Of a stretch of DNA of 12,880 nucleotides, positions 8,537 to 11,609 are shown piece after piece. Position 1 is the stretch's first letter; the number at the start of each line of letters is the position of its first letter. The stretch is from positions 1 to 12,880 of the forward strand of contig CAMNFW010000039.1 of NCBI GenBank assembly GCA_946537565.1. The letters are read 5' to 3'. The notes under the pieces were generated by a model. It was given only the letters and a program-made list of their open reading frames with translations. It was not told the DNA's origin and did not search any database. Made by a program: the position numbers and the translations under genes. Source of the stretch: an uncultured Ruminococcus sp. Lineage in GTDB: Bacteria; Bacillota; Clostridia; Oscillospirales; Ruminococcaceae.

Positions 8537-8639
8537 TAATAAGCAAGAGTATTATTTTTTGTATTTTATTCAAATTGTAATATACGCTGCCCGGAATAAT
8601 ACTCAAAGGCATAATCAAAACATCAGGAGGACGATTGTC

Positions 8640-9329
8640 ATGCGATCACCACAAGATTATAAAAAAGCCAAAGGTCTGTTCGGTGCTGATATGAAAAAAT
8701 ACGAAGAGGTTTACAGTATCTATGCCGCTTCGGGTTATACAAAGGAACTTTGTGAAGCTTATGCCAGTGCCTTTGTTGACGATGTCAAGAAGCCTTCAAA
8801 TTTTGATATAGTGGAAACTGCACGGCTTTACGACCGCATACATGACTCAAAAATGGTTGAGTTCTATCTCAGTATGCTCTCAGACAAGAAGATCAGCGGC
8901 GATGACAAATTCTATTACTGTATCGAAACCCTAAAAAATATGAGCAAGCAGGGTCATTGGCGTGACGCTGAGGACTTCCGCACAGAAAATATCAATTTTA
9001 TGCAGAAGCACTCCGAAAAAGTGTCAATGAAACGGACTGCCGATATGTATATTGCTCTTGCTTTGGCTGACTGTGCTGCAAAGAAATACGATCAGGCAAT
9101 GCGGCTCATCACCGGTTTCGGCTACAAGCCCGGAAAAAATGATACAAAATTGCTGGAAATGCTCATAACCACTGTCTACATCTATGCCAAAAAGGGTGAC
9201 AATGAAGCTCTTGAAGGAGCAATTGCCAACGCAAAAGGCGGTCTTAAGCTGATAACTGAACCGGAGTTTCCATGGAGCGTAGACTACTATGAAAAATGTA
9301 TCGACGAGGCCGCAAACGGCGTCTTATAA
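8640..9329 (+). CDS. Uncharacterised helical, possibly TPR-like, cytoplasmic protein
   Basis: I do not recognise this protein. It has 229 residues with no signal peptide, no membrane segment and no cysteine cluster. It is rich in Lys, Asp, Glu, Ala and Tyr and reads as a chain of amphipathic helices. Several helix pairs (ARLYDRIHDSKMVEFYLSML; ADMYIALALADCAAKKYDQA; MLITTVYIYAKKGDNEALEG) have the small/aromatic spacing seen in tetratricopeptide-like repeats. That is a visual impression, not a scored match. The start at 8640 is set by CAGGAGG, 9 bases upstream; a longer reading from a TTG at 8559 has no site. It has its own strong promoter and terminator, so it is a single-gene unit, divergent from the regulator operon. 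A helical scaffold or adaptor role is possible but not shown. Confidence 0.9.
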   Translation: MRSPQDYKKAKGLFGADMKKYEEVYSIYAASGYTKELCEAYASAFVDDVKKPSNFDIVETARLYDRIHDSKMVEFYLSMLSDKKISGDDKFYYCIETLKNMSKQGHWRDAEDFRTENINFMQKHSEKVSMKRTADMYIALALADCAAKKYDQAMRLITGFGYKPGKNDTKLLEMLITTVYIYAKKGDNEALEGAIANAKGGLKLITEPEFPWSVDYYEKCIDEAANGVL

Positions 9330-9359
9330 CAAAATATACACATAATCAGTACAATATTG

Positions 9360-9383
9360 CAGGAGCCTTGCGCTCCTGTTTTT
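9360..9383 (+). terminator. Terminator after the helical-protein gene
   Basis: CAGGAGC (9360-9366) pairs with GCTCCTG (9372-9378) around a 5-base loop and is followed by TTTTTG. It lies 30 bases after the stop codon at 9329. Confidence 0.9.
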
Positions 9384-9709
9384 GTTTTGGGCAGTATAAA
9401 TTTACAAAAAATTCAAATTTTGCAAAAAAAGTTATCTCTTTTATGTTGATTAACTGTTTTTACAATATTGCGTTTCCGCCTCAATCCTGTCGCCTCTGTG
9501 AGAAATCGAAAACCAATTAACAATATCTGCAAATGCCGTCTGTCCTGAAATATCCATATTTTAAGCCATTTTCAACAAAATATTTATATTTTAATTTATA
9601 AATATTTTGTTTTCAATCAACTTTGTTTCAGAAATATGTATTTATAAACATTTTTATTTTGTTAATATTAAATTAATTTTTCCTTTTGACTAAATTATAG
9701 CAATATCGT
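9384..9709. other. AT-rich stretch with no gene seen
   Basis: No reading frame with a ribosome binding site or coding character was found on either strand here. The stretch is very AT-rich from about 9550 onward and contains the 15-bp inverted repeat listed separately. It could be the remains of lost genes or a mobile element, but no terminal repeats or transposase fragment are visible. Confidence 0.6.
9574..9611. repeat. 15-bp perfect AT-rich inverted repeat
   Basis: AACAAAATATTTATA (9574-9588) and TATAAATATTTTGTT (9597-9611) are perfect inverted copies around an 8-base loop, and each arm is flanked by TTTTCAA or a close match. A stem this long is unusual even in AT-rich DNA. It could be a weak terminator, a protein-binding site or a mobile-element relic. 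Confidence 0.6.
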
Positions 9710-10047
9710 TCAAAAAATCGGCAATATTATCAATTGATTATCTCCGCAGTTTATTCTATAATACAATTGTCGGAAGGGAAAAAGCCTTAAACAAGCTGAT
9801 TCCTCCGCAAGATCAAATTTCAGATACATTTTTATGTGTCCTGTGGATCACGGCAAATATGATTTTATATCCTTGTAAATATCCGGTTCAAACTCCTCCG
9901 GATAAGGTTCTTTCTACTCCGTCTCAGCAAACTTCAGTGCTATATGCTGTTTATTAAACATTAATGCCTATAATATGTTTAATCGCCTAAATTCAGCTTT
10001 CCATCAGTGAAAACGTTAAGATAGCCTATGTACTTCAGAAGGATATA
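9710..10047 (-). pseudogene. Possible decayed coding remnant, unknown product
   Basis: The minus strand reads as protein-like segments broken by stops and at least one frameshift. 10047-9979 gives YILLKYIGYLNVFTDGKLNL..., ending at TAA. A second frame from ATG 9961 gives MFNKQHIALKFAETE, stop (9914-9916), then KEPYPEEFEPDIYKDIKSYL, stop (9848-9850), then KMYLKFDLAEES... to 9710. Codon content (GAG, GAA, CCG, AAG, GAT) and acidic/aromatic composition resemble real coding sequence rather than random AT-rich spacer. No start site with a ribosome binding site is left. I cannot name the family. The alternative is that it is simply non-coding sequence with chance composition. Confidence 0.35.
9734..9762 (+). 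promoter_or_regulatory. Candidate plus-strand promoter in the gene-free stretch
   Basis: TTGATT (9734-9739), 17-base spacer, TATAAT (9757-9762); expected start near 9769. It has no coding sequence downstream on the same strand before the terminator at 10127-10185, so it could produce an RNA of about 410 nt ending there. A second, weaker -10-like TATAAT at 9969-9974 could instead give an RNA of about 200 nt. Confidence 0.5.
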
Positions 10048-10051
10048 TCAT

Positions 10052-10185
10052 ATGGGTGCAGCTACGGAAACCGCACCGTGCCAGCGGTTTGATGCGTATA
10101 GAGGGTGCGTATCAGCCAGAAAGTATAATAGCGTTCTTCTTTGGCAAATTGAGAGGGTGCCAGGGAAGAGCGCTATTTTCTTTTT
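10052..10185 (+). ncRNA. Candidate structured RNA, three stem-loops, two sharing an AGAGGG loop
   Basis: Three adjacent hairpins on the plus strand. H1 is AAACCGC/GCGGTTT (10068-10074 with 10084-10090, loop ACCGTGCCA). H2 is GATGCGTA/TGCGTATC (10091-10098 with 10106-10113, loop TAGAGGG). H3 is 20 bp (10127-10146 with 10158-10177, loop ending GAGAGGG) and is followed by a U-rich tail. The H2 and H3 loops both end in AGAGGG directly before UGC on the 3' arm. GGGTGC occurs three times (10054, 10103, 10155), and its complement GCACC (10073-10077) overlaps H1, so alternative pairing is possible. Wobble pairs are G-U only when read on the plus strand, which sets the direction. The same bases also hold a 45-codon frame (ATG 10052, AGAAGG upstream), but transcription should stop before its TAG at 10187-10189. 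The structured core is given; the true 5' end is unknown. It matches no RNA family I can name. Confidence 0.5.
10127..10185 (+). terminator. Very strong intrinsic terminator (20-bp stem)
   Basis: Twenty consecutive pairs including three G-U (10127-10146 with 10158-10177), an 11-base loop, then TTTTCTTTTT (10176-10185). No plus-strand gene precedes it except the candidate RNA, so its presence argues that something is transcribed here. The minus strand has no U-tract. Confidence 0.85.
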
Positions 10186-10210
10186 ATAGCCTCTAAATCC
10201 GCAATCAAAC

Positions 10211-10233
10211 GGGCTGTGCCTGATGCACAGCCC
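10211..10233 (-). terminator. Hairpin terminator after glmU
   Basis: GGGCTGTGC and GCACAGCCC form a perfect 9-bp stem with a 5-base loop, 5 bases after the glmU stop codon. The U-tract on the minus strand is poor (GTTTGATT); on the plus strand it is somewhat better (TTATCTT). It probably ends glmU transcription and may work in both directions. Confidence 0.65.
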
Positions 10234-10238
10234 TTATC

Positions 10239-11609
10239 TTATGATTTCTTCTTCATTTTGCGGAGTGTGTATCCCTCATTTACCTTCAGCTCTCCCCTGT
10301 CGATTGCCAGCGCATAGTCAGGCACATCACGGGTAACTGTTGTTCCGGCTGCGGTGTAAACGCCCTTGCCCAGCTTTATCGGCGCAATAAGACTTGTATT
10401 GCTGCCGACAAAGCTATAGTCTCCGATAACGCAGCGGCTCTTTGCAATTCCGTCAAAGTTCACTGTAACCGTTCCGGCTCCGATATTGACCTTCTTGCCA
10501 ATATCTGAATCCCCTACATACGCAAGATGTGCAATGGCTGTCTTTTCACCAACCGACGAATTCTTTATCTCAACAAAGTCACCGATCTTAGCTCCGTCCT
10601 TAATAGTGCTGCCCGGACGGATATGCACATACGGTCCTACATTTACATCATTGCCGATCACCGAATCCTGTGCCTGTGCTGTGTTGAACACAACATTATT
10701 TCCGATCGTACAGTTTTCTGCAACAGAATACGGCCCGATGACGCAGCCCGTGCCGATCTTTGTTCCACGGCGAAGTATAGTTCCGGGAAGTATCTCCGTG
10801 CCAAGTCCGATCTCTACGCTGCGTTCTATTATAACGCCGTCAGTGCTGACAAATCCCACTCCGTTTTCAAGGTGCTTGTCTATGACCATTTCACGGGCAA
10901 TATTATTCAGCTTAAGAAGATCTTTTCTGTCGTTAGCACCAAGTATTATCTGTGGATTTGCCGATTTATAGGCACCTGCACGTTTTCCTTCAGACAAAGC
11001 TATGCTGACTGTATCAGTGAGATAATACTCCTTCTGAACATTATTATTCGTAAGCTTTCCAAGCAGCTTTATAAGATCAGCTGTCCTGAACCAGTACGCT
11101 CCGGAATTGACCTCCCTTATTTTCAGCTGTTCTTCATCTGCATCCTTTTGCTCAACTATAGCGCTTATGCCGGTCTCGCTGCGGATTATCCTGCCATAGC
11201 CCTTCGGTTCTTCCAGTTCCGCTGTTATGACCGTCACCGCATTGCTGTTCTGCTCATGAACTATAAGTGCTTCTTTAATAGTTGCAGCATCTATAAACGG
11301 CGCATCTCCGCACAATACAAGGGTGCTTCCGCTTTCGTCACCGCTGAGAAAAGGTATAGCCTGCTGCACTGCATGACCTGTTCCAAGCCTTTCAGCCTGA
11401 AGAACCGTTTTATACCTGCCGCCCAGATACTCATCTATCATCTCGCCTTTGAATCCCTTAACTACGCATATGTCACCTGTCCCCGCCTGTTCACAGGCAC
11501 TTATCACCCACTCCAGCATCGGCTCACCTAAAACCTTGAACAGCGGCTTCGGTATCTCCGCCTTCATTCTCTTGCCCTGTCCGCCTGCTAAGATTATTGC
11601 TTTATTCAT
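10239..11609 (-). CDS. glmU: Bifunctional GlcNAc-1-P uridyltransferase / GlcN-1-P acetyltransferase
   Basis: Makes UDP-GlcNAc from glucosamine-1-phosphate, acetyl-CoA and UTP in the cytoplasm, for peptidoglycan and other wall polymers. At 456 residues it is full length for the two-domain enzyme. The N-terminal nucleotidyltransferase domain (1-230) has LAGGQGKRMK (7-16), the following PK (20-21), CGDAP (100-104, metal-binding Asp102), EVNSG (166-170) and GANDR (Asn226). The C-terminal left-handed beta-helix (from about 250) has hexapeptide repeats and the acetyltransferase residues: Arg331 (HIRPGS), Lys349 (VEIKN), catalytic-type His361 (AHLAYVGD), and NIGAGTVTVNFDG (375-387). The start at 11609 has AAGGAGGA 7 bases upstream. 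It stands alone between its promoter and terminator; in many Bacillota prs follows glmU, but here it does not. Confidence 0.97.
   Translation of the reverse strand: MNKAIILAGGQGKRMKAEIPKPLFKVLGEPMLEWVISACEQAGTGDICVVKGFKGEMIDEYLGGRYKTVLQAERLGTGHAVQQAIPFLSGDESGSTLVLCGDAPFIDAATIKEALIVHEQNSNAVTVITAELEEPKGYGRIIRSETGISAIVEQKDADEEQLKIREVNSGAYWFRTADLIKLLGKLTNNNVQKEYYLTDTVSIALSEGKRAGAYKSANPQIILGANDRKDLLKLNNIAREMVIDKHLENGVGFVSTDGVIIERSVEIGLGTEILPGTILRRGTKIGTGCVIGPYSVAENCTIGNNVVFNTAQAQDSVIGNDVNVGPYVHIRPGSTIKDGAKIGDFVEIKNSSVGEKTAIAHLAYVGDSDIGKKVNIGAGTVTVNFDGIAKSRCVIGDYSFVGSNTSLIAPIKLGKGVYTAAGTTVTRDVPDYALAIDRGELKVNEGYTLRKMKKKS

Follow-up and report, generated by a model that had tools for sequence, protein, structure and literature searches.

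In CsrB/RsmZ-type RNAs, repeated GGA-containing hairpin loops bind CsrA, and in the TwoAYGGAY RNA two hairpins share one loop motif. Only a small number of large structured RNAs of unknown function are known from bacteria. Among these ornate RNAs, OLE, ROOL and GOLLD form RNA-only complexes, as described by cryo-EM (PMC12286853); judging from the abstracts, the exact function of OLE is unclear.

Here we describe a locus of an uncultured Ruminococcus sp., in which three hairpins at 10052-10186 of the window (the whole stretch of 12,880 nucleotides that was analysed; the RNA features below are all on its plus strand) look like the 3' third of a structured RNA of ~415 nt that is predicted to be transcribed on its own. 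Similar to OLE, ROOL and GOLLD, this RNA would be multi-branched and non-coding with strongly conserved loops, and it shares with OLE an unclear exact function. Unlike these three, it is ~415 nt long, comes from one genus so far and matches no phage, plasmid or Rfam family. As in CsrB/RsmZ-type RNAs, a short motif is repeated in hairpin loops, but the motif is AGAGGG, which lacks the GGA core, and it occupies two loops instead of many; as in the TwoAYGGAY RNA, two hairpins carry an identical loop motif, but the motif is a different one and no Rfam match was obtained. A literature search returned nothing on this RNA, and an unlabelled listing is possible among the 3161 candidate RNAs from human microbiomes reported in PMC8040213. 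The string 'Ruminococc' is absent from the main text of that paper and from the main text of PMC11109978, and the Ruminococcus passages of PMC7580957 concern CRISPR arrays.

Extent of the predicted RNA and its promoter

An earlier note had described 10052-10186 as a candidate small structured RNA of three hairpins, closed by a 20-bp terminator into which no protein gene of that strand leads. All three hairpins (H1, H2 and H3) are indeed present, H3 being a 20-bp terminator stem followed by a T-rich tract at the place described, and the nearest gene-size open frame on the same strand stops at 9329, followed by a terminator-like hairpin visible by eye at 9360-9378 (CAGGAGC-CTTGC-GCTCCTG, then T-rich). 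The word 'small' had to be given up, as the predicted RNA is ~415 nt, compared to 135. A blastn search with 10000-10200 gave matches in 12 of 60 genomes, the window's own counted in both numbers and all 12 belonging to its genus. Alignment of these homologues revealed a conserved part much longer than 10052-10186, extending from promoter-like DNA near 9699 to the terminator; the conserved unit begins at ~9769 and its promoter DNA at ~9699, both upstream of the noted hairpins. A covariance model, R1, was built from 12 sequences (R2 is the refined model) and matched 92 of 125 genomes of the genus, placing homologues well beyond the strain. For further analysis 93 sequences were taken from 91 of these 92 genomes, with G004 left out and two sequences each from G395 and G381.

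Two GCAATAT-type DNA boxes, 21 bp apart, are located at 9699-9727, directly upstream of a predicted promoter at 9734-9762, which comprises a -35 box (TTGATT, 9734-9739), a 17-bp spacer and a -10 box (TATAAT, 9757-9762). The position of the -10 box suggests a start near 9769, and the terminator suggests an end at 10186, so that the full RNA, with both ends estimated, would span 9769-10186. This corresponds to the conserved block in both the 12- and the 93-sequence alignments, the median length being ~400. Promoter counts were made on 90 of the 93 sequences, the three cut upstream being left out. An exact TATAAT together with a TTG -35 box, in a search that required a GCAA box ahead of the promoter, was present in 88 of these 90 sequences with 420 nt upstream; the spacer is 17 bp in 87 of the 90, and a second GCAA box lies 21 bp before the first in 80 of the 88 promoters. 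The combination of boxes, 17-bp spacer and exact TATAAT was found in 79 of 90 real upstream stretches but in none of 90 reversed or 1800 shuffled ones, 16 of the shuffled stretches showing a partial match to this arrangement. Reading the boxes as the signal of a tRNA or an already known RNA was rejected, given that 18 loci with the box gave no Rfam match and no tRNA gene.

The surroundings of the RNA bear on whether it could be a cis-regulatory leader or the 3' end of a neighbouring gene, an explanation that we consider very improbable. Three genes recur upstream among the 93 loci, some of which are cut by contig ends: one for a ~235-aa protein, on the strand of the RNA (69 loci), one for a histidine kinase (65) and one for a response regulator (64). 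In the window the first of these, at 8631-9329 and ~232 aa long, belongs to no Pfam family. The same-strand gene upstream in 69 of 93 loci would fit such a cis-acting element; against it stand the promoter-like signals and terminator of the RNA itself, the terminator-like hairpin that follows the window's upstream gene, and downstream genes that vary, the commonest nearby one lying on the opposite strand in 34 of 34 loci. Within the downstream flank, 34 loci have a glmU-like gene, on the minus strand in all 34, and 43 have a gene resembling pyruvate phosphate dikinase, and other genes also occur; the proteins of the window were named by Pfam, and the glmU and dikinase names are our own reading. 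None of the three upstream genes is present in 16 of the 87 loci with 1.6 kb upstream, and the RNA is still there. With changing downstream genes and an upstream block that some loci lack, the RNA appears to be independent of its neighbours. A GC-rich inverted repeat, noted by eye at 10210-10233, separates the RNA from the glmU-like gene that converges on it, and is perhaps the terminator of that gene.

Predicted fold and covariation

The predicted RNA opens with a 5' hairpin of variable sequence, P0 (9771-9807), weakly supported by the thermodynamic model of the window, and continues with a conserved UGUGUCCUGU segment (9835-9844), found as GTGTCCTGT in 74 of the 93 sequences, some of which are cut upstream. 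Three long-range stems within 9852-10082 would close a multi-branched core, on the basis of pair types in 91 sequences, covarying columns and the window fold: P1 (9852-9855/10079-10082), P2 (9857-9862/10048-10053) and P3 (9866-9874/10039-10047), of which P2 and P3 are disrupted in a fair share of the 91 sequences. Hairpin P4 (9880-9904), with a conserved AAACUCC loop, holds the strongest covarying column pair. Stem P5 (9946-9949/9994-9997, the element as a whole spanning 9946-9997) also covaries and carries hairpin P6 (9953-9961/9975-9983). In P6, 98.4% of cells are paired, two-sided changes occur in 6 of the 9 pairs and the loop, UAAUGCCUAUAAU, is strongly conserved.

The 3' third holds the hairpins described in the earlier note. 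H1 (10055-10077; stem 10055-10059/10073-10077) has 99.3% of cells paired and changes on both sides in 5 of 5 pairs. H2 (10086-10117; in the window 10091-10099/10105-10113) carries the first AGAGGG at 10100-10105 and changes on both sides in 8 of 11 pairs. H3, together with its T-rich tract, forms a putative intrinsic terminator (10127-10186), with the second AGAGGG at 10152-10157 above a stem of 20 bp in the window (10127-10146/10158-10177); 18 of 19 pairs change on both sides. Folding of 10040-10190 gave -56.5 kcal/mol (z -4.31), whereas 200 dinucleotide-shuffled versions gave -39.92 +/- 3.85 and none of them folded as well; this fold of the segment alone draws H1 differently, as short stems. 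Ten sampled full-length sequences gave folding z-scores of -3.7 to -6.2 (40 shuffles each).

Compensatory changes in H1, H2 and H3, which the earlier note had named as the support to look for, were observed in two alignments of 63 and 12 sequences. The larger one was fitted to the refined model R2, and its counts are based on 63 of 92 sources, as near-duplicates and insertion-rich rows (among them L105, L108, L114 and L115) were dropped with the aim of staying below 400 columns; L097, which is the second G395 copy, was not among the 92 sources. In this alignment 95.9% of cells are paired, and 37 of the 44 pairs show two-sided changes. Both-side changes amount to 466 cells, compared to 115 +/- 11 in shuffles (0 of 500 reach this value) and 44-78 with slid partners, and occur, with G-U pairs, in all four modelled helices. 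Being model-fitted, the 63-sequence alignment leans towards the structure, and other evidence therefore matters. In the alignment of 12, made from sequence only, 21 of 44 pairs change on both sides, with 0 of 500 shuffles as good on four measures and 1 of 500 on pair types. A structure-free covariation ranking of the 93 sequences placed 22 of the top 23 column pairs in helices, and also backs P1, P2 and P3, which join the 5' part to the H1 region, as well as P5 around P6.

The one top-ranked pair outside the helices is relevant to another reading, namely that the RNA may self-assemble into an RNA-only particle like OLE, ROOL and GOLLD, with the conserved loops making contact between copies. 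The similar build, long and multi-branched with strongly conserved loops on covarying stems, speaks for such a particle, as does the cryo-EM precedent of three ornate bacterial RNAs (PMC12286853). However, this single pair among the top 23 shows standard pairing in 54% only, so that a contact between copies is not visible in the ranking. We regard self-assembly as unlikely.

Twin AGAGGG loops

Both AGAGGG loops described in the earlier note are found, at 10100-10105 and 10152-10157, with TGC after each, and both are nearly fixed: the first is kept in 86 of 93 sequences, the second in 91, and both together in 84. GAGGG is present in the first loop of all 93 sequences, the seven without AGAGGG having UGAGGG. 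The second loop reads AGAGGA in the other two sequences, from two genomes, and these are the only cases approaching the GGA-containing loops of CsrB/RsmZ-type RNAs. The bases 3' of AGAGGG vary in the second loop, suggesting that AGAGGG itself is the part that is kept. Loop 1 is predicted to be unpaired with a median of 0.999 (76 sequences); for loop 2 the median is 0.73 (74 sequences), with values above 0.8 in 22%, so it appears only partly open in the ensembles.

Two further proposals of the earlier note were not supported. A switch between folds through GGGTGC/GCACC pairing finds no counterpart in the ensemble of the window, to which this result is confined: the closing pairs of H2 and H3 have probabilities of 0.88-1.0, and no pairing of a loop with H1 is at or above 0.1. 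The likeness of AGAGGG to a ribosome-binding site was not borne out, as the loops pair with the 3' tail of 16S no better than shuffled loops do (48% and 16% as good). Pairing of the conserved loops with each other was likewise rejected after eight pairs had been tried, in which at best 12% of shuffles were as good.

These results also weigh on the suggestion that the AGAGGG loops act as seeds, pairing with CU-rich mRNA segments or another small RNA for target regulation or sponging, which we think improbable. Although the two loops show the same six bases, at least 12% of shuffles were as good in each of the eight loop pairings within the RNA and the two with the 16S 3' tail, and the pairing between the P6 and H2 loops is broken without compensation in all seven UGAGGG sequences.

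Distribution and coding potential

Among the good-quality genomes of the genus, R1 matched 54 of 68, and 88 of the 92 matching genomes have a single match. The 93 sequences do not include the weak second match in either G377 or G387. In G377 (L114, 3389-3763) two matches adjoin, one of them short, and G381 has two full copies that differ and lie on different contigs (L102 and L106); these doubles may be mixed assemblies or else rare duplications. Among the named carriers are R. flavefaciens FD-1, 007c, ATCC 19208 and MC2020. An exact-pattern scan of named genomes gave 70 stretches, of which 67 are titled Ruminococcus and the other three only Oscillospiraceae or Clostridiales bacterium. An early gapped pattern missed members of the genus that R1 later found, and its two matches in G063 were judged to be chance.

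No match was obtained in 33 of the 125 genus genomes, 14 of them of good quality, indicating that the RNA is not needed by the whole genus. Nine weak R2 matches in eight of these 33 genomes were read, compared by BLAST and attributed to chance. RpoB identity shows the 33 non-carriers to be dispersed: the three full-length RpoBs of lowest identity (83-84%) come from them, but so do some partial ones at 93-94%, and the missing matches could thus reflect divergence, loss or incomplete assembly.

Samples of 297 genomes from the family, 394 from the order and 391 from the class, with some members of the genus among them, gave no convincing match outside the genus; scans of more than 40 genomes use stricter filters and can lose weak matches. 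R1 matched five genomes of the family sample, four in the genus plus G320, where the match covers model positions 168-217 only and was dismissed as chance. R2 matched three in the order sample, two in the genus plus G670, from another family of the order, in which a terminator-like stretch without the conserved motifs was BLAST-compared and equally dismissed; in the class sample the window's own genome alone matched. Chance matches of this kind, and a 3' hairpin that makes a good terminator, would be expected if the locus were a plain terminator with chance hairpins, but the both-side changes and G-U pairs in every modelled helix argue against this. We regard this explanation, together with the DNA site, mobile element or coding region that might stand in its place, as extremely improbable. 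Against a mobile element, the RNA gave no match in phages or plasmids by blastn, or in viral contigs by exact pattern.

An overlapping reading frame, kept while the stems break, was the refutation that the earlier note had foreseen; no frame is conserved across the homologues. In favour of a coding region, one frame through P6 is peptide-like and joins 48 of 76 loci by BLAST, a link that nucleotide-level conservation explains. This frame is not kept: even at the best conserved block, the P6 motif, any in-frame start is present in 46 of 91 sequences, and the spacing from P6 to the neighbouring blocks occurs in all three phases (23, 28 and 39 of 90; 40, 33 and 20 of 93). A leader peptide at P6 (LLNINAYNMFNRL) was rejected on the same in-frame starts and scrambled phases. 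Synonymous changes in the P6 frame are few (AAC in 89 of 91, TTT in 84 of 91), its GCC and TAT being fixed by the search pattern itself.

Identity and possible function

Novelty, as proposed in the earlier note, agrees with the Rfam searches: the whole window gave 0 matches at cut-off against the 4227 families of Rfam 15, which include OLE, ROOL and GOLLD. At E up to 10, the region 9330-10260 gave seven matches below the cut-off, every one to a microRNA or snoRNA family of animals or plants, the best being mir-3689 (E 0.002) on the terminator stem; these were judged chance. Twenty homologous loci searched against Rfam at E up to 0.05 gave none at cut-off and two below it, both in one locus. 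In one of the 20 (L027) a CsrC match reached 20.9 bits, the cut-off being 61. 6S RNA, like the RNA described here, is a stand-alone structured RNA of the same genomes, but its model, RF00013, does not match the window and finds other places in 14 of 16 genomes, namely 8 of 10 carriers tested, in which 6S RNA therefore sits elsewhere, and 6 of 6 genomes without the ~415-nt RNA. Neither the incomplete assembly that contains the window nor G008 yielded a 6S RNA.

No catalogued RNA family having been matched, this is probably a new non-coding RNA, and we are nearly certain that it is a new structured one. On the evidence of these searches the family is absent from Rfam and found only in Ruminococcus as far as sampled. 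Comparison of the homologues established a conserved predicted promoter, a multi-branched fold, a terminator, twin loops, changing downstream genes and the lack of a kept frame; a promoter and terminator of its own, covarying stems and no conserved frame are what marks a putative stand-alone structured non-coding RNA.

Combined with these data, we favour, with some reservation, a stand-alone, trans-acting structured non-coding RNA of ~415 nt whose twin loops serve as a two-site docking platform. The RNA would be transcribed from ~9769 to 10186, P1-P3 would form a scaffold with H2 and H3 standing beside it, and the identical loops may present two docking sites to a partner acting in trans. That the two loops are identical and almost invariant suggests a partner that has two sites for binding. 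Such a partner would most likely be an RNA-binding protein, held or sequestered by an RNA that acts as scaffold or sponge. That the twin loops bind protein is put forward tentatively, given that their duplication and conservation are its sole basis; the commonest upstream neighbour (69 of 93 loci) has no Pfam domain, which counts against protein docking. Equally tentative is the broader proposal of a new class of ornate bacterial RNA with a tightly conserved promoter of its own, working as a scaffold, either a self-assembled particle or an RNA-protein complex, in rumen and gut Ruminococcus, in which the twin loops bind a dedicated partner. Since 92 of 125 genomes of this fibre-degrading genus, as well as named strains such as R. 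flavefaciens FD-1, carry the RNA, its transcript, structure and partner are directly testable.

Promoter-like boxes at other loci

L218 (at ~1501), from a relative where the RNA was not found, holds two near-identical tandem copies of a short unit that comprises promoter-like sequence and a tiny open frame. A AGCAATAT-GT-CTAA box, as at the promoter of the RNA, was also observed in L225, L226, L230, L233, L235 and L264, in the first five of these from ~1500 onward and in some on the reverse strand. Between the box and a small lipoprotein-like gene lies conserved intergenic sequence in which TTTTCAACA and TGTGGATAA, which are DnaA-box-like, are abundant; it is possibly a replication origin. Counts of the box against a reversed-pattern control, with at most two mismatches, were 15/1, 13/5, 10/4, 21/8, 9/4 and 8/9 in six genomes, indicating enrichment in five of the six. 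A regulator shared by the RNA promoter and the box at the lipoprotein gene is possible.
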